Below, piece by piece: positions 3,649 through 10,349 of a stretch of 53,029 bases of DNA. Positions within the stretch are counted from its first letter, which is position 1; the number at the start of each line of letters is the position of its first letter. Position numbers and translations under genes: made by a program. A model generated the notes under the pieces. The model made no database searches. It was not told the origin of the DNA and saw nothing but the letters and a program-made list of their open reading frames with translations. Origin of the DNA: Thermoproteota archaeon (GTDB lineage Archaea; Korarchaeota; Korarchaeia; Korarchaeales; Korarchaeaceae); assembly GCA_027491435.1 (NCBI GenBank), contig JAOZFG010000029.1, positions 1 to 53,029 on the forward strand, in the 5' to 3' direction.

Positions 3649-4860
3649 TTAGAGGCCAGCCGCCGCCATGGCTATTGCTACCTCTATCTGCCTCTTAAGC
3701 TCTTCGGGAAGTCCCTCCAGCTTGACGTCCATGAACCCCCTGACCAGGATGCTCGTCGCCTCTTCCTCGGTGAAGCCCCTGGACATCAGGTAGAAGATCT
3801 GCTCCTCCTCAAGCTTGCCTACTGCGGCCTCGTGGGAGAGGGTGACGTCGCTGTGCCTAGCATCAAGCTCAGGTACTGTTAATATCCTAGATGTGCTGGA
3901 CAGCATTAGGCCGTCGCACTCTATATGCCCCTTGGTGTCTGGAGCCATTGCTACTATGGTTCCCCTGGTCACCACCTCGGCGAAGTCCTTGGTTATGGTC
4001 TTAGACACTATCTCAGCCGAGGTCTCGGGGGCCTCCAAGTAAACGGTGGATCCCACGTCCATGAGGGAGTTCTCCTTAGACACCACGATTGAGGAGAGGT
4101 AAGCCCTAGCCCCCTCCCCGACTAGCCTGACCCTGGGGTTTGTCTGGAGGCTAGCTGTGGGGGTCATGTTTATGTAGTGGCTTATGTACTCCCCGCCCTC
4201 CTCAACTATCACCCCCGTCCTCGGCCTGACGTGTGTCTCCTCATCCCAGGCGTGAATCATGGTGTAGGTCAGCTTTCCTCCCTTCTTGACGTAGAACTCG
4301 GAGACGCCAGCGTGTAGTCCTGCTTTCTCCATCATGGTCGTGCACCCCGTGATCACGTGGAGCTCAGCTCCCTCCTCCACGACGACTATGTTGTGAGGGG
4401 CCTGTATAGCCCCAGGAGTCGACATCAGCAGGCAGGACTGTACGGGCTTCTCCACTTTAACTCCCTTCTCCACTATGAAAACGTACCCCTGGTGATTGCC
4501 CATGAGCTCGGCGACCGCCGTGTACTTGTCCAGGTCTACAGGCACAGCCTTCCAGTAATAGTCGTCGATGATCCCCTCCTTCAACGCCTGCTTGAGGCTC
4601 ATCACAGTTAGCCCTTTGCTCTTCACTGATATCTGAACTGCCTCCTGATCGAGTTGGTAGTAGGAGCCAGATCTGTTCGCCTCTGTGACGTCTATCCCAA
4701 CGCTTGCTAGCAGGTGAGCGTTCGCCCTTATCAGATCTAGGGTGTAAGGCCTTTCAGGCGGCGGGGAGAACTGGCTTATGTCCACGTCAGGCCCATACTT
4801 TGAGGGTTTATTGAGGGCCCTCTTGGCCCTCTCCCTTACCTCCTCAAGCAGCTCTATCAT
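3649..4860 (-). CDS. sufB: SufB/SufD-type Fe-S cluster assembly scaffold
   Basis: A 403-residue SufBD-family protein that would form the beta-helix scaffold on which Fe-S clusters are built with SufC. The C-terminal core is clear: GHIECDGLML, PELDARHSDVTLSHEAAVGKL and EEQIFYLMSRGFTEEEA. The conserved C, E and H of these segments are the usual candidates for cluster or scaffold contacts. It is the only SufB/SufD homologue here, so the complex is probably SufC2-SufB2, the minimal archaeal arrangement. Its ATG lies inside the end of sufC (17 bp overlap), indicating translational coupling. The cysteine desulfurase is not adjacent; a sufS candidate lies about 46 kb away. Confidence 0.93.
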   Translation of the reverse strand: MIELLEEVRERAKRALNKPSKYGPDVDISQFSPPPERPYTLDLIRANAHLLASVGIDVTEANRSGSYYQLDQEAVQISVKSKGLTVMSLKQALKEGIIDDYYWKAVPVDLDKYTAVAELMGNHQGYVFIVEKGVKVEKPVQSCLLMSTPGAIQAPHNIVVVEEGAELHVITGCTTMMEKAGLHAGVSEFYVKKGGKLTYTMIHAWDEETHVRPRTGVIVEEGGEYISHYINMTPTASLQTNPRVRLVGEGARAYLSSIVVSKENSLMDVGSTVYLEAPETSAEIVSKTITKDFAEVVTRGTIVAMAPDTKGHIECDGLMLSSTSRILTVPELDARHSDVTLSHEAAVGKLEEEQIFYLMSRGFTEEEATSILVRGFMDVKLEGLPEELKRQIEVAIAMAAAGL

Positions 4861-5596
4861 AACACATCAACTCCGCCATTACACAGTTCATACAAGCCTC
4901 AAATCCGCCCTCCTCTATATCAGACAAGACCTTCTGGAGCTCTCCACAACACAAGATCTTGCCTTCCATCATTATGTAGGCCAGGGAGCCGGACAGGTAC
5001 TTGGCTATGTGTCCCGTGTGAGTCACCACTAGAGCTGACCTCTCCTCCCCATCCTCTAGTAACCCCCTTATAGCTTCTCCTATTACGGGAAGTCCCGCCA
5101 AGTCCACGCCTGAATCAGGCTCATCTAAAAGTATAAACTTGGGTCTTTGAGCGTAGACCAGCAGTATTTCAGCTCTCTTCATCTCTCCCCCGCTAAATCC
5201 AACGTGGAGGTCCCTGTCCAGGAGCTTATAGGCGTCCATCTTCTTGGCAAGCTCCTCCACTTCCTCCATGCTGGTCCCGTACATATGAGTGAGCCTCCTC
5301 AACAGCTCCCTTAACTTCACCCCTTTAAGCTTAGGAGGTATTTGGTAAACTATCCCTAGGCCTCTCTGCGCTCTCTCGTGAGGTTCTAATTTTAGCAGGT
5401 CTGTCCCGTTAAAGGTTATGCTACCACTCACCACCTTGTACTTGGGGTTGCCCATTATCGTCTGGATTAGGGAGGACTTACCCGAGCCGTTAGGCCCCAG
5501 TAAGTAGACCACTTCTCCATCTCTTATCGCCAGGTTTATGCCCTGGAGTACTCTCTTCCCTTCTACCTCCACGTGGAGCTCTTCTACCCTTAGCAT
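4844..5596 (-). CDS. sufC: SufC Fe-S assembly ATPase with cysteine-rich tail
   Basis: From the ATG at 5596 this is a 250-residue SufC-type ABC ATPase that powers cluster assembly on SufB. Walker A is GPNGSGKSS, the Q-loop region is YQIPP, the signature is FSGGEMKR and Walker B is ILLDEPDSG; VVTHTGH is the switch histidine segment. I chose 5596 because GAGGG lies 6 nt upstream and TATA-like sequences (TATAAAG near 5624-5630, TTTTAAAA near 5635-5642) lie inside the longer reading frame that extends to 5692, which has no family similarity; an ATG at 5602 is also possible. The C-terminal tail has CC, then CMNC, then another C, unusual for SufC. It is the first gene of the sufC-sufB operon. Confidence 0.92.
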   Translation of the reverse strand: MLRVEELHVEVEGKRVLQGINLAIRDGEVVYLLGPNGSGKSSLIQTIMGNPKYKVVSGSITFNGTDLLKLEPHERAQRGLGIVYQIPPKLKGVKLRELLRRLTHMYGTSMEEVEELAKKMDAYKLLDRDLHVGFSGGEMKRAEILLVYAQRPKFILLDEPDSGVDLAGLPVIGEAIRGLLEDGEERSALVVTHTGHIAKYLSGSLAYIMMEGKILCCGELQKVLSDIEEGGFEACMNCVMAELMCYDRAA

Positions 5597-5622
5597 AACC
5601 ATCCCTCTATCAATAAGAAGGT

Positions 5623-5643
5623 CCTTTATATCCCTTTTAAAAC
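5623..5643 (-). promoter_or_regulatory. Promoter of the sufCB operon
   Basis: Read on the minus strand, TTTTAAAAG (5634-5642) is followed by TATAAAG (5624-5630). Either box places transcription start close to 5600-5613, just before the ATG at 5596. This argues against the longer reading frame as the real start. Confidence 0.55.
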
Positions 5644-5696
5644 TATCGTTAATTGAAGGATTGATTGAAAAATAAATGGACCTCACCTTCAAGCTC

Positions 5697-5938
5697 TAAA
5701 TTTGCTTTTCTAATAAGATTATTTTTTAAACTATTTTAACATTTTAGTGTTTATTCACTTAGTTATAAGTTTAGTTATCTATATTATATGAATTTTTTAA
5801 ACTTAAATGTAAGGTAGAAACAAGGGAGGGTGTATTACTCTTATAAATTATATACCAATATATATGATAACAGAAATCTCTTTTAATTATAACAAAAGCT
5901 TTATATATTACAGGTGTCTCAAAAGTTAGGTGAGCCTT
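5697..5938. other. AT-rich non-coding island
   Basis: About 240 bp of strongly AT-rich sequence separates the sufCB promoter from the CBS-domain gene, in sharp contrast with the GC-rich flanks. It holds an exact 12-bp direct repeat, ATTTTTTAAACT, at 5721-5732 and 5792-5803, and two TTAGTTAT copies 12 bp apart at 5759-5766 and 5771-5778. A small GC island (CAAGGGAGGGTG, 5821-5832) interrupts it. I see no credible coding region. It could be an extended regulatory region or an AT-rich unwinding element. Confidence 0.6.
5898..5908 (+). promoter_or_regulatory. TATA box for the CBS-domain gene
   Basis: GCTTTATATAT lies about 36 bp before the ATG at 5939 and would place transcription start near 5928-5930. 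GGTGAGCC just before that ATG acts as the SD sequence. This supports ATG 5939 over the GTG at 5930. Confidence 0.6.
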
Positions 5939-6349
5939 ATGAGCGAGGGATTCGAAGTGAAAAGGGTCAAGGAGCTCCTAAAGGTTAAGGAGCCCATAAC
6001 TATAGGGCCAGAGGCCAGCTTGAGGGAGGCCGCCAAGAAGATGGCAGATCACGGCATTGGTTTCCTCCCCGTAGTGGACGAGAAGGGAGACCTCGTAGGG
6101 GTGATTTCTGAGAGGGATATAACCTACTCCTTTGGAAATGGGAAGGAAAACTCCAAGGTTAAAGACGTAATGAGGACTAACATAATAACTGTTAATGAAA
6201 ACGACACCGTAGCCTACGCGGCCAGGCTCTTGAGCGAGCACGGGATTAGGCACCTGGTCGTCGTTAACGACGAGGGCAAGCTGGTGGGGGTCTTCTCAAT
6301 TAAGGACCTAACTTACGGAGAAGGGGCACTCTTCTCAATAATCTTCTAG
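5939..6349 (+). CDS. Tandem CBS-domain protein
   Basis: A 136-residue protein built of two CBS motifs and nothing else. Motif one spans about residues 20-70 (ITIGPEASLREAAKKMADHG, then VDEKGDLVGVISERDI). Motif two spans about 80-132 (ITVNENDTVAYAARLLSEHG, VNDEGKLVGVFSIKDL). Such pairs (Bateman modules) bind adenine nucleotides or SAM and signal energy state; stand-alone versions are common in archaea and their partners are usually unknown. The start at 5939 is set by the TATA box and the GGTGA sequence. The AT-rich island directly upstream suggests more regulation than for its neighbours. moaD follows with its own TATA-like box. Confidence 0.93.
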   Translation: MSEGFEVKRVKELLKVKEPITIGPEASLREAAKKMADHGIGFLPVVDEKGDLVGVISERDITYSFGNGKENSKVKDVMRTNIITVNENDTVAYAARLLSEHGIRHLVVVNDEGKLVGVFSIKDLTYGEGALFSIIF

Positions 6350-6355
6350 ACCCCT

Positions 6356-6366
6356 TCCTTTTAAGT
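6356..6366 (+). promoter_or_regulatory. TATA-like box for moaD-moaE
   Basis: TCCTTTTAAGT lies about 27 bp before the moaD ATG at 6388, giving a nearly leaderless transcript for the two-gene operon. Confidence 0.5.
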
Positions 6367-6387
6367 TTCAGGGATTGTTAAGACAGG

Positions 6388-6618
6388 ATGCCCGTCAGGG
6401 TCAGGTTCTACGGCCCCCTTAAGGAGAGGTTTGGTGAGGAAGCCGAGGTCTCCGCAGAAGATCTGTTCAAGCTTTTACTTAAACTGGGGAAGGAGGTTTA
6501 CGAGGAATTCCAGGAGGGCAGGATAATGGTGGCCGTGAACCACGAGATAGTGCATGGTAAGGTTGGGCTTAAAGATGGTGACTTGGTAGCTGTCCTACCT
6601 AGGTTCTCGGGTGGTTAG
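6388..6618 (+). CDS. moaD: Molybdopterin synthase small subunit MoaD-like
   Basis: This 76-residue ubiquitin-fold protein starts MPVRVRFYGPLKERFGEEAEV and ends in FSGG. The C-terminal Gly-Gly is the site that is adenylated and converted to thiocarboxylate before MoaD donates sulfur to the molybdopterin dithiolene. Size and the DGDLVAVLPRFSGG ending match MoaD/ThiS-type sulfur carriers. The moaE start follows its stop codon directly, so the two subunits are encoded as a unit. The pairing makes molybdenum/tungsten cofactor synthesis the likely role, rather than thiamine or tRNA thiolation. Confidence 0.9.
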   Translation: MPVRVRFYGPLKERFGEEAEVSAEDLFKLLLKLGKEVYEEFQEGRIMVAVNHEIVHGKVGLKDGDLVAVLPRFSGG

Positions 6619-7029
6619 ATGAAGTCTGGGATATTTAGGGGGAGCCTGGACGAGGAGTCCTTGCTTGACAGCCTAGCAGAGGGGAACGTGGGGGCAATTC
6701 TCACCTTTAGAGGGGTTGTCAGGCCCTTCTCAGAGGGTAAGAAAGTAGTTAAACTCTACTACGACTACTACGAAGAGTTAGCTTTAAAGCAGCTTGAGGA
6801 GATAAGGAAAAAGGCCATAAGGAAGTTTGAGATAGTAGATGCTATCGTATATCACAGGGTGGGCGAGGCGAAGGTTGGAGATCTCGTGCTCTTCGTGGCA
6901 GTGGCTTCAGAGAGGAGGAAGGCTGGCTTCGAAGCTTTAAGGTGGATAGTGGATGAGGTTAAGTCCGGGGTGGCCATATGGAAGAAGGAGTACTTTGAAG
7001 AGGGAGAGAGATGGGTGGAGCCTGATTAG
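6619..7029 (+). CDS. moaE: Molybdopterin synthase large subunit MoaE
   Basis: A 136-residue MoaE homologue, the catalytic subunit that inserts sulfur from MoaD thiocarboxylate into precursor Z. Family signatures are GAILTFRGVVRPFSEGKKV, then LYYDYYEELA, VYHRVGEAKVGDLVLFVAVAS and the C-terminal KSGVAIWKKEYFEEGERW. This holds the conserved lysine region near the active site. The usual HR in the VAxxHR segment is ER here (ASERRKAGFEA). It begins at the nucleotide after the moaD stop and overlaps the convergent FAD-oxidase gene by 4 bp. Archaeal cells with tungsten or molybdenum oxidoreductases need this pathway. Confidence 0.92.
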   Translation: MKSGIFRGSLDEESLLDSLAEGNVGAILTFRGVVRPFSEGKKVVKLYYDYYEELALKQLEEIRKKAIRKFEIVDAIVYHRVGEAKVGDLVLFVAVASERRKAGFEALRWIVDEVKSGVAIWKKEYFEEGERWVEPD

Positions 7030-8396
7030 GGGTACAGCTTCCCCGGGTTCATTATCCCCTTGGGGTCTAACACTCTCTTTATCTCCTTGACGAGCTTTAA
7101 ATAGCCCAGGGAGTTAACGCTCTTGAGTTCCTCAACCAGGAGCTCCTTCTTAGTCAGGCCTATGCCGTGCTCCCCGCTTAAGGAACCGCCCATCCTTATG
7201 GCCAGTAGGGCCACCTCTCTGAACATCTCCTCGGCCTTCTTCACCTGTTCGGGGTCATCTGGATCGTAGCATATGTTAGGGTGTAGGTTACCGTCACCGG
7301 CGTGCCCGAAGGTGGGCATTGGAAGCCCGTATTTCTCTTTTATCTTTTTTATCTCTCTGAGGGCCTCAACCAGCTTGGAGACTGGGAAGACCACGTCCTC
7401 TATGAGGACCCCCTTGTAGGTCCTAGTGACGGCAGCGTATATCCCCTGCCTGACCGCGTAAAGCCTCTTCATCTCCTCAGGGTCGTCACTAGCTTCAGCC
7501 TTACCTCCGTTCCTCCCAATTATCTCTGTCACTTGATTGGCCAGTCGCCATACTGCCTCTTTAGGCCCATCAACGTCTACTATTATCATGGCCTCAGTCT
7601 CAGGAATGTCCAGGCCTGATTGCTCCCTTACTATGTTGACGCTCTCGTCGTCCAGCAGTTCCAACATCGTCGGCAGTATGCCGGACCTCCTTATCTCGAA
7701 TATGGCCCTTCCCGCATCTTCCAAGCTGTTGAAGAGGCCTAGTATCCTTACCACCTTCTCGGGAAGCGGGTAAATTCTCAGCCAAGCCTTCGTTATAACC
7801 CCCAGAGTCCCCTCAGACCCTATGAATAGGGAGATCAGGTCAGGTCCCCACCTCCACTTGTAGAGGGGCTTTCCGATCCTCAGCACCTCTCCTCCTGGTA
7901 TGACCACCTCCAGAGATAAGACCCAGTTCTTCATGACCCCGTACTTAGCTCCCCTCAGCCCTCCGGCGTTTTCAGCTAAGGCCGCCCCTATTGTGGCATA
8001 CCTGGAGCTGGCAGGATCTGGAGGAAAGAAGTACCCATACTTTCTGCATTCCTGATCCACCTTCGCTACTGTAGCCCCAGCCTCAGCCATGACCCAACCA
8101 TCGTCAACGTTAACTTCAATCCCGTCCATGGGTGTGACGTCCAGCAGGATGCCCCCCTTTACGGGCACAGAGGCGCCCGTTAGGGAGGTGCCCCCTCCCC
8201 TAACCACCACTGGAGTTGAGGTTTCGTTGGCTATCCTGAGCACCTTGCTGACGTCCTCAGTCGAGTAGGCCCTGACCACCGCCAAGGGCACCTGTCTCAG
8301 GACGTTAGAGGCGTCGGTCACGTAGGCGTATATGTCCTCAGGCTCGGTCAGGACCTTCTCACCTAGCTCCCCTTTCAACTCCTTGATCACGTCCAT
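7026..8396 (-). CDS. FAD-linked oxidase of the GlcD / D-lactate dehydrogenase family
   Basis: A 456-residue flavoprotein that would oxidise a 2-hydroxy acid such as glycolate or D-lactate. The FAD-binding PCMH domain is shown by VVVRGGGTSLTGASVPVKGG (near residues 60-80), then DPASSRYATIGAALAENAGG and IGSEGTLGVI. The C-terminal oxidase part has FGHAGDGNLHPNICY and GSLSGEHGIGLTKKE, with histidines expected in the substrate/metal site, and ends DPKGIMNPGKLYP. Its start is 1 bp downstream of the Fe-S partner gene stop on the same strand, so the two form an operon and probably a complex passing electrons to an Fe-S chain. The true substrate is not shown by sequence. Confidence 0.92.
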   Translation of the reverse strand: MDVIKELKGELGEKVLTEPEDIYAYVTDASNVLRQVPLAVVRAYSTEDVSKVLRIANETSTPVVVRGGGTSLTGASVPVKGGILLDVTPMDGIEVNVDDGWVMAEAGATVAKVDQECRKYGYFFPPDPASSRYATIGAALAENAGGLRGAKYGVMKNWVLSLEVVIPGGEVLRIGKPLYKWRWGPDLISLFIGSEGTLGVITKAWLRIYPLPEKVVRILGLFNSLEDAGRAIFEIRRSGILPTMLELLDDESVNIVREQSGLDIPETEAMIIVDVDGPKEAVWRLANQVTEIIGRNGGKAEASDDPEEMKRLYAVRQGIYAAVTRTYKGVLIEDVVFPVSKLVEALREIKKIKEKYGLPMPTFGHAGDGNLHPNICYDPDDPEQVKKAEEMFREVALLAIRMGGSLSGEHGIGLTKKELLVEELKSVNSLGYLKLVKEIKRVLDPKGIMNPGKLYP

Positions 8397-8397
8397 G

Positions 8398-9756
8398 TTA
8401 GACCCTTCCCGTCATTATGGCGTAGGCCCTCCCATATACAATTATCTCTTGGACGTGCAATCCAACAGGGCACGTCTGTGAACACGAGCCACAGAGCACG
8501 CATGAGTAGAGCCTGTCCAGGACTTTCTCCGAGCTGAGGGGTTCTCCCCTAACGAGAGCATTTATCAAGGTCATCCTACCCCTGGCACTCCTGCTTTCCA
8601 GCCTGTCCAGGGCCTGAGCTGTGGGGCAGACTGCATTGCAGAAGCCGCACTTCTTGCAGAGGTCAGTGTATTCCCTTAGCCTCTCCCCCAAGTTGGAGAG
8701 GTCCCACCTGAGGGTATCGGGTAGCACCTTGTACTCCTTGAAAGATACCTCTTGGGGCCCTTCGAACTCTAACCTGTTCCTAAAGGCCTCTGCCACGAGG
8801 GAAGCTAGATCCAATACATCCATCTTTATGGAGAGGTCATCAAACCCGACCCTGAGCATCATAATGCAGGCGGGACAAGACGTGAGGGTTAGAGAAGCTC
8901 CAGTCTCAGCTAGCTCCTTAACCCTCTCGTAGGACACCTTCCTAGCCAGCTCTGGTTGAGTCAGCTCCAAACCACCATCTCCACTGCAACCCGTGTTCAC
9001 CCCGTGCCTCTCGGGCTCGATTAGCTCCACCCCATCCAGCCTGGACAGCACATATCTTACCTCGTCCACGACTCCCATGACCCTGGCTAGGTAGCAGGGG
9101 TCGTGGTAAGTGACCCTGACCTTCCTCCTCAAGCTGGCTTTAGCTCCAGTCTCGGCCATCCTCCTGGCTACCACTTGGACGAAGTGCTCCACCTTCACGT
9201 TGAACTCGGTGAACACGGGGTAATAGTGCTTAAAGGCCGTAGCGGCTATAGGATCTAGCGTTATAATTTTGCTCACTCCGAGCTCCCTGAACTTGGCCGC
9301 CACCTCGCTGGCGTACCTCTTGAAGTCCTCCAGTAAGCCATAAGTGTGGAGAGCTATTCCAGAGGGAGGTTCGTCCTCGTACAGGTAGCCAAACTTAACG
9401 TCTAACTTCTTGAGGACGTAAACGGCGTCCTTTAACGCCTTCTCATACCTAGAGTTCAGAGAGGACCAAGAAGCTCTGGCTACTACCCTGTAGATTCCCA
9501 ACTTCTTGAAGAGAGGTGCCACCTTAGCCATGGAGTTCAAGTCTAGCTTGAGCCTGCTCATCATCCTGAAGGCCCCTTCTGCGTATCCCATGATCGGATA
9601 AACTTCGCCAGCGTAGAAGATGGTTCCATTAACTGGACCTCTAGGCAAGTCAAGGCCTTTAGCCCACCTCACCCTCTCTTTGGGGCCTAGGCCTAAAACA
9701 TCCCCCTCACGCTCGGTGTTCTCGGAGGCCATCAAGACTACGGGGGGAACTACCAA
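8398..9756 (-). CDS. GlcF/HdrD-like Fe-S oxidoreductase with reversed domain order
   Basis: A 452-residue partner of the downstream GlcD-like flavoprotein. Related GlcF, LldF and HdrD proteins carry two 4Fe-4S motifs at the N-terminus followed by two cysteine-rich (CCG) domains. Here the order is reversed. The CCG region comes first, and CKKCGFCNAVCP (Cys 367-377) and CVLCGSCSQTCP (Cys 419-429) lie at the C-terminus. The first CCG domain is recognisable in outline (residues 44-182) but has no cysteine before residue 221. The second keeps DPC221, SCPAC (294/297) and GC257, where CC is usual. Start is TTG 9756 with GGTGATC upstream; ATG 9732 is an alternative. Confidence 0.85.
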   Translation of the reverse strand: MVVPPVVLMASENTEREGDVLGLGPKERVRWAKGLDLPRGPVNGTIFYAGEVYPIMGYAEGAFRMMSRLKLDLNSMAKVAPLFKKLGIYRVVARASWSSLNSRYEKALKDAVYVLKKLDVKFGYLYEDEPPSGIALHTYGLLEDFKRYASEVAAKFRELGVSKIITLDPIAATAFKHYYPVFTEFNVKVEHFVQVVARRMAETGAKASLRRKVRVTYHDPCYLARVMGVVDEVRYVLSRLDGVELIEPERHGVNTGCSGDGGLELTQPELARKVSYERVKELAETGASLTLTSCPACIMMLRVGFDDLSIKMDVLDLASLVAEAFRNRLEFEGPQEVSFKEYKVLPDTLRWDLSNLGERLREYTDLCKKCGFCNAVCPTAQALDRLESRSARGRMTLINALVRGEPLSSEKVLDRLYSCVLCGSCSQTCPVGLHVQEIIVYGRAYAIMTGRV

Positions 9757-9797
9757 ACGATCACCACCTTTATGGGAGGAACCTACTAATTACCTTG

Positions 9798-10349
9798 ATG
9801 AGCCCCTCCAGAAGTGACGTTTCCATAAGCAAGAGGCTCACCCTTGTTTTAAGGCACAAACCTGAATTGCTGGACTTGAAGCCCGATGAGAGGGGCTACG
9901 TTAACTTGAACGAGCTGCTTAAATCCTTCGAGAGAAAGTGGAGCATCCCAGCTGAGAGGGTCATGAAGGTCCTCCTCTCAGATCAGGAGAGGTTTGAGGT
10001 TGTGGATGAGAAGGTCAGGGCTAGATATGGCCACAGCTTTCCGGTAGAACCTGGGGAGCCTTTAAATCCAGAGGAGGTTCCGGAGACGTTGTACCACGGG
10101 ACTGTAGAGTCATCCTGGCGTAGGATAGCTGAGGAGGGAATAAAGCCCATGAGCAGGGCCTTTGTCCACCTGTCTTTAACGGCAAAGAGGGCCCTTCAGG
10201 TGGCCTCCAGGAGGAGGGGAAGGAGGATCATCCTCGTGATAGACGGCAAAGAGTTGGCAAAAAGGCGCGGGGTTTGGAGGGCGTCTAAGCTAGTTTACCT
10301 GACGGACTACGTGCCCCCTGAGCTAATAAAAAAGGTGGTTTATATGTAG
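9798..10349 (+). CDS. kptA: RNA 2'-phosphotransferase (Tpt1/KptA)
   Basis: A 183-residue KptA/Tpt1 enzyme. These transfer an RNA 2'-phosphate to NAD, giving ADP-ribose 1'',2''-cyclic phosphate; in archaea the natural substrate is debated. The N-terminal winged-helix-like lobe holds VLRHKPELLDLKPDERGYV, including the catalytic Arg-His pair. RARYGHSF follows, and the ART-like C-terminal lobe has LYHGTVESSW and FVHLSLTAKRALQVASRR. The last segment supplies the further arginine contact. An in-frame TTG one codon upstream (9795) is an alternative start. It is divergent from the GlcF-like gene and overlaps the small convergent RHH-like gene by 10 bp. Confidence 0.93.
   Translation: MSPSRSDVSISKRLTLVLRHKPELLDLKPDERGYVNLNELLKSFERKWSIPAERVMKVLLSDQERFEVVDEKVRARYGHSFPVEPGEPLNPEEVPETLYHGTVESSWRRIAEEGIKPMSRAFVHLSLTAKRALQVASRRRGRRIILVIDGKELAKRRGVWRASKLVYLTDYVPPELIKKVVYM

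Follow-up and report, generated by a model that had tools for sequence, protein, structure and literature searches.

A GlcF-like iron-sulphur protein with reversed module order beside a GlcD-type dehydrogenase gene in Korarchaeota

GlcF, HdrD and EtfD belong to a widespread group of Fe-S proteins built from Fer4 and CCG modules. In GlcF a Fer4 dicluster is combined with two CCG domains and the GlcD gene lies adjacent, while EtfD, FadF and DgcB combine a CCG-CCG unit with two cubane clusters and take up electrons from flavin. For EtfD, it has been proposed that electrons from the flavin first reach the CCG clusters and from there the two cubanes (PMC13083937). Its cluster D1 is a linear [3Fe-4S] cluster held by four cysteines, with a threonine replacing the second cysteine of the CC pair, and its noncubane cluster D2 also uses His583 of CCG1 (PMC13083937). 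FadF and DgcB, being without CCG1 cysteines, provide a precedent for a CCG pair with one cluster (PMC13083937). HdrD/GlcD units have been described as conserved in Korarchaeia without MCR and were called puzzling (PMC10667645).

The window analysed here, the whole stretch of 53,029 nucleotides of korarchaeal DNA, encodes an Fe-S protein of this kind with its modules in another order. The open reading frame (8398-9756, minus strand, 452 residues) starts at a TTG codon, with AAGGTGGTGATCG preceding it, and internal stops are absent. Pfam places a CCG match at residues 215-302 (E 9.2e-15; 55 bits against the PF02754 gathering score of 20.6 for this second CCG domain) and a Fer4_8 dicluster at residues 365-433 (E 3e-11), and therefore CCG precedes Fer4. 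The cysteines of the two 4Fe-4S motifs lie where the original prediction had put them (367-377 and 419-429), and no cysteine occurs before C221. The features of the locus are given below.

8398..9756, minus strand: coding sequence, degenerate CCG1, CCG2 and Fer4 dicluster (ORF, Pfam, 17 orthologues)
9139..9639, minus strand: CCG1 module, residues ~40-206, without cysteine, long form (alignment, motif table, AF2 model, Foldseek)
9604..9606, minus strand: E51 at the first CCG1 Cys position, in FYAGE (alignment, motif table)
9361..9366, minus strand: P131-S132 at the position of the CCG1 CC pair (alignment, motif table)
9244..9255, minus strand: D168-P-I-A171 at the CCG1 CxxC position (alignment to EtfD, motif table)
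8782..9138, minus strand: CCG2 module, residues 207-325 (PF02754 match)
9094..9096, minus strand: C221, candidate CCG2 cluster ligand, invariant (orthologue alignment)
8983..8988, minus strand: C257-S258, first Cys of the CC pair kept and second replaced by Ser, invariant (alignments)
8866..8877, minus strand: C294-P-A-C297, candidate CCG2 cluster ligands, invariant (orthologue alignment)
8686..8781, minus strand: CCG2-Fer4 linker, residues 326-357, fastest-evolving part (dN/dS comparison)
8626..8658, minus strand: 4Fe-4S motif 1, C367xxC370xxC373xxxC377 (sequence, Pfam)
8470..8502, minus strand: 4Fe-4S motif 2, C419xxC422xxC425xxxC429 (sequence, Pfam)
7026..8396, minus strand: GlcD-type FAD-linked dehydrogenase, 456 residues (Pfam, curated model, synteny in 17 of 17)

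The GlcD-like neighbour that had been noted 1 bp away was indeed found there, downstream on the same strand. It matches FAD_binding_4 (E 2.3e-39) and FAD-oxidase_C (E 6.7e-64) in Pfam and the whole of the curated GlcD model TIGR00387 at 399.3 bits; since this score is below the cut-off of 567.9 bits, we refer to the partner as GlcD-like and assign it no particular substrate. The GlcF model PRK11274 matches the Fe-S protein in two stretches, the best being the Fer4 part, at 86.8 bits against a cut-off of 333. Unlike GlcF, the protein has reversed modules, a CCG1 devoid of cysteine and a CCG2 with four, and no GlcE gene was seen next to the locus. The pair is flanked by genes which by sequence appearance are MoaE-like (6619-7029, plus strand) and KptA-like (9795-10349, plus strand), with no obvious functional link to it.

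Full-length orthologues were counted in 26 genomes of the class and occurred in 15 of 16 genomes of the genus (61-68% identity) and in both genomes of the sister genus (47%), giving 17; the single genus member lacking one is a genome 70% complete, and none was found among these 26 genomes in genera g3, g4 and g5 or in other families. The order opposite to that of GlcF and HdrD, reported from the window sequence alone, is present in all 17 orthologues, each with a single open frame across the CCG/Fer4 junction and with a CCG1 free of motif cysteines, whose Cys positions are occupied by E/D, by P-S or S-F and by D-P-(I/V)-(A/V). One non-motif CCG1 cysteine each was seen in two close orthologues (L021 and L022), and the orthologue alignment A1 shows no variation at C221, C257, S258, C294 or C297, nor at any of the eight Fer4 cysteines. 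In all 17 loci the next gene is a GlcD with 57-68% identity to that of the window. Seven close pairs were compared by the Nei-Gojobori method, and in six of them dS greatly exceeded dN in each of CCG1, CCG2 and Fer4 (for L011/L014, dN and dS of 0.034 and 0.481, 0.026 and 0.471, and 0 and 0.615, respectively), the remaining pair, L023/L024, with CCG2 dN equal to dS, being too similar to be informative. Such low dN relative to dS indicates that even the degenerate CCG1 is kept for some reason, and the constant partner together with purifying selection wherever tested bears out the earlier view that the complex is evidently still used.

In our surveys the reversed order was not encountered beyond these two genera. 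Full-length profile searches found no other CCG-then-Fer4 protein in 394 archaeal genomes or in 369 from the phylum that includes G338, and returned nothing in 350 from the phylum that includes G165. The survey cut-offs ranged from E 1e-35 to 1e-48, and the large searches scored the best four candidates per genome. A scan with two peptide patterns over 84,980 species, in a collection that omits near relatives of the window, showed no reversed order among the best 80 loci. A distant, independent reversal could have escaped such surveys. In the open-access literature, a CCG-before-Fer4 order was not found described. The reversed order is real, of single origin and limited in these surveys to two korarchaeal genera; it is not the common archaeal form, the finding by which the original prediction could have fallen. 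The genome that carries the window also contains, at locus L153 (G000:C5), a second GlcD-like gene (4803-6638) followed by a Fer4-CCG protein of canonical order (6643-7725, 360 residues), and therefore both orders exist within one cell.

As to the nature of the N-terminal half, Pfam gives no CCG1 match in this protein but shows two CCG stretches in its aligned relatives L136 and L057. An AlphaFold2 model built from 39 sequences (pLDDT 92.9, pTM 0.92) was compared with the PDB using Foldseek; the top match was EtfD (E 3.4e-12, 345 columns, TM 0.54 by query), followed by LutA and then several HdrB chains. A model of L136, which has the canonical order (pLDDT 88.5), aligns with EtfD over 490 columns at TM 0.67, a difference from the window protein that is expected if matching in sequence order reaches only the CCG half of the latter. 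As predicted by the model, the N-terminal half has a genuine CCG-CCG fold with a recognisable CCG1, in agreement with the original reading of this half as CCG and not with an unrelated fold.

The CCG half is of a long type, with a helical insertion of ~50 residues in CCG1 between the first Cys and the CC positions, and three sets of proteins share this feature. Set (a) is archaeal, takes in korarchaeal genus g4 and consists mostly of CCG-only proteins beside LutB (LUD) or of loci with separate GlcD, Fer4 and CCG genes; set (b) comprises Dehalococcoidia CCG-only proteins beside LutB; and set (c) is a clade supported at 96/89, whose 21 rows are the 10 window-type rows included in the tree, canonical L136 and L227-L235, and split L226. 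L136 and L226-L235 share the CCG module of the window protein, but their Fer4 stands at the N-terminus or is encoded separately, and they retain four CCG1 cysteines, except L227. LutA-like CCG-only proteins of LUD operons are also long-CCG1 relatives, the archaeal ones likewise poor in CCG1 cysteines; they differ in lacking Fer4 and having LutB as partner, and the archaeal ones have kept a DPH motif in CCG1 as well as the CC pair of CCG2.

In canonical GlcF/HdrD-like rows, with L060 and L066 as exceptions, each of the five CCG1 positions is a cysteine. The first Cys of CxxC is lost and four are left in Dehalococcoidia and in most members of clade (c); none or one is left in set (a), in L227 and in the window clade. 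At least three changes of this state are needed on the tree, and a cysteine-less CCG1 is also found in the canonical-order proteins L178, L227 and L060. On its own, such a CCG1 is therefore ordinary, being recurrent and the normal state in a large group of related archaeal proteins. The loss of cysteines, which had been tied to the change of order, is a separate matter that neither requires the reversal nor results from it. L060 and L066 (Wolframiiraptor and Dehalococcoidales) lie outside the long-CCG1 clade and have lost most or all CCG1 cysteines with the order canonical. In a cysteine-poor CCG group (L172, L173, L175, L210, L212 and L214) the His of the retained CCG1 DPH aligns with EtfD His583, which suggests that an EtfD-like site may be formed from the CCG2 cysteines and this His.

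Taken together, the protein is best explained as an Fe-S subunit that carries electrons for a GlcD-type FAD 2-hydroxyacid dehydrogenase and whose modules were reversed by splitting and subsequent fusion, a reading that we consider probable. Candidate substrates may include D-lactate, glycolate, D-2-hydroxyglutarate or similar compounds. GlcD would move electrons from the substrate onto FAD; by analogy with EtfD, these should enter the Fe-S protein at the single CCG2 cluster, with C221, C257, C294 and C297 as candidate ligands, and leave towards an acceptor through the pair of cubane [4Fe-4S] clusters in the Fer4 module at the C-terminus. CCG1 would keep its fold, hold no cluster and act as a structural or docking half. 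EtfD has membrane helices, haem b and Fer4 before CCG-CCG, whereas CCG-CCG and Fer4 cover all 452 residues of the reversed window protein, which is predicted from its sequence to be soluble.

The CC pair of CCG2 had been described as GC257. The pair is indeed altered, but in alignment to EtfD (9ojn) and in the multiple alignment C257 takes the place of the first cysteine and S258 that of the second, and hence C257 as the second cysteine was ruled out. With Ser258, the CCG2 ligand pattern in the alignment equals that of EtfD D1, the comparison being to one reference structure. The position of EtfD His583 is occupied by Ile170, in contrast to the cysteine-poor set (a), which keeps the His in DPH. 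With the CCG1 site, the second CC cysteine and the His position lost, the ligands remaining in CCG2 would correspond to those of the linear cluster of EtfD. From sequence, it may tentatively be proposed, as a rather doubtful but testable prediction on cluster type arising from the four-cysteine CCG2, that this naturally reversed GlcF-type subunit belongs to a soluble archaeal enzyme in which just one cluster, perhaps a linear [3Fe-4S] one, links FAD with the ferredoxin clusters. If true, this reading would show that module order is free in the GlcF/HdrD/EtfD family.

On the CCG tree the reversed order arose once within clade (c) (99/97; one change). An origin of the CCG half in the Dehalococcoidia LutA group was our first hypothesis and was ruled out when the nearer clade (c) was found. 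On the GlcD tree, the window group sits with GlcDs of split operons including L226 (98/98), away from the main canonical group; canonical fused L178 is also on the split side. Joining the window GlcD with all clade (c) GlcDs, those of un-permuted kin and L226, was rejected (p 1.7e-6). The Fer4 tree, with about 94 columns, is short and weakly resolved, and the source of the window Fer4 is therefore uncertain. On it, grouping the window Fer4 with un-permuted clade (c) kin other than L136 gave an AU p of 0.025, while grouping with L226 (p 0.074) and with L136 alone (p 0.092) was not rejected, and standalone Fer4 gave p 0.077, or 0.038 in a smaller set. GlcD directly adjoins L136, L226, L228, L229, L230, L233 and L235. 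An idea of a mosaic, derived from the distant GlcD of L136, was weakened as the full-length GlcDs of L226 and L228-L235 score 373-397 bits to that of the window.

Since GlcD groups with split lineages and Fer4 fails to join the un-permuted kin, a split with later fusion in the opposite order would be the likeliest route, favoured over a one-gene circular permutation. The ancestor may have resembled L226 in having GlcD, Fer4 and CCG as three genes; the CCG gene would then have been fused ahead of the Fer4 gene, a single reversal that took place in the ancestor shared by the two korarchaeal genera. The original prediction, circular permutation with loss of one cluster site, stands as regards the lost site, and permutation becomes one possible route. 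A true permutation, by tandem duplication and trimming of a fused Fer4-CCG-CCG gene that left the same Fer4 at the C-terminus, is possible but less likely. It would suit the grouping of the CCG half with the close canonical relatives L136 and L228-L235 and the L136 Fer4 test; however, the low p value for window Fer4 and un-permuted kin as one clade and the affinity of the GlcD partner for split operons speak against it. Moreover, L136 has a Fer4 of the CNTCRCGFC type, as against CxxCGFC in the window protein, and this Fer4 groups with other canonical ones (95/87), and GlcD is upstream in the relatives but downstream, as the last gene, in the window locus. Whichever model is assumed, a single rearrangement would not suffice to reverse the whole gene order.

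The affinity of the CCG half to CCG-only proteins beside LUD-domain LutB genes, together with LutA being the second structural match, could also suggest participation in a LutABC-type system of L-lactate utilisation instead of a GlcD enzyme. This is very unlikely, as the window locus has no LUD gene beside it, all 17 loci conserve GlcD as the neighbour, and a distinct LUD locus elsewhere in the genome comes with a CCG protein of its own (L153_9 to L153_11).

A further possibility is an HdrD-like heterodisulfide reductase acting on CoM-S-S-CoB, as korarchaeal GlcD/HdrD pairs have been annotated (PMC10667645). The HdrB-like fold of the model and the reported conservation of HdrD/GlcD units agree with it, and HdrB and HdrD share the CCG-CCG fold; but Hdr uses two catalytic noncubane clusters with five cysteines each, from C, CC and CxxC (PMC13083937), whereas the window protein has none in CCG1 and four in CCG2. 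The lost ligands argue against classical heterodisulfide reduction, which appears highly improbable here. If the window pair is among the reported units, these losses would favour a plain electron carrier of a hydroxyacid dehydrogenase. Finally, an assembly artefact or a decaying pseudogene, which the CCG1 cysteine loss might have suggested, is refuted for practical purposes by the orthologues, given one architecture in 17 genomes, no stops and purifying selection.

What is new is thus a GlcF-like Fe-S subunit with reversed order, which provides a clean natural case in this group. The route can be traced because un-permuted, split and reversed forms share one clade. For specialists the reversal is a neat curiosity.

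Some related loci deserve mention. At L153 (9512-12578), two LUD-related genes accompany a CCG-only protein with one of five CCG1 cysteines and an intact CCG2 (CCGGPIE). A selenocysteine in the LUD paralogue, suggested by '1 TGA' in search rows, was ruled out as the TGA is a normal stop codon. GlcF occurs in split form, with GlcD, a ~105-residue Fer4 dicluster and CCG-CCG as separate genes, in L210, L211, L212, L214, L172, L173, L175 and L226; these loci come from several archaea, LutB adjoins at times, and in some of them the CCG and Fer4 genes are not immediate neighbours. At L227 (218-5449), a canonical-order CCG protein of 408 residues with a cysteine-less CCG1 follows a 690-residue protein with an HdrA-like start, and the further Fer4/CCG pieces after it have the appearance of another GlcF/HdrD-like gene with a broken frame.
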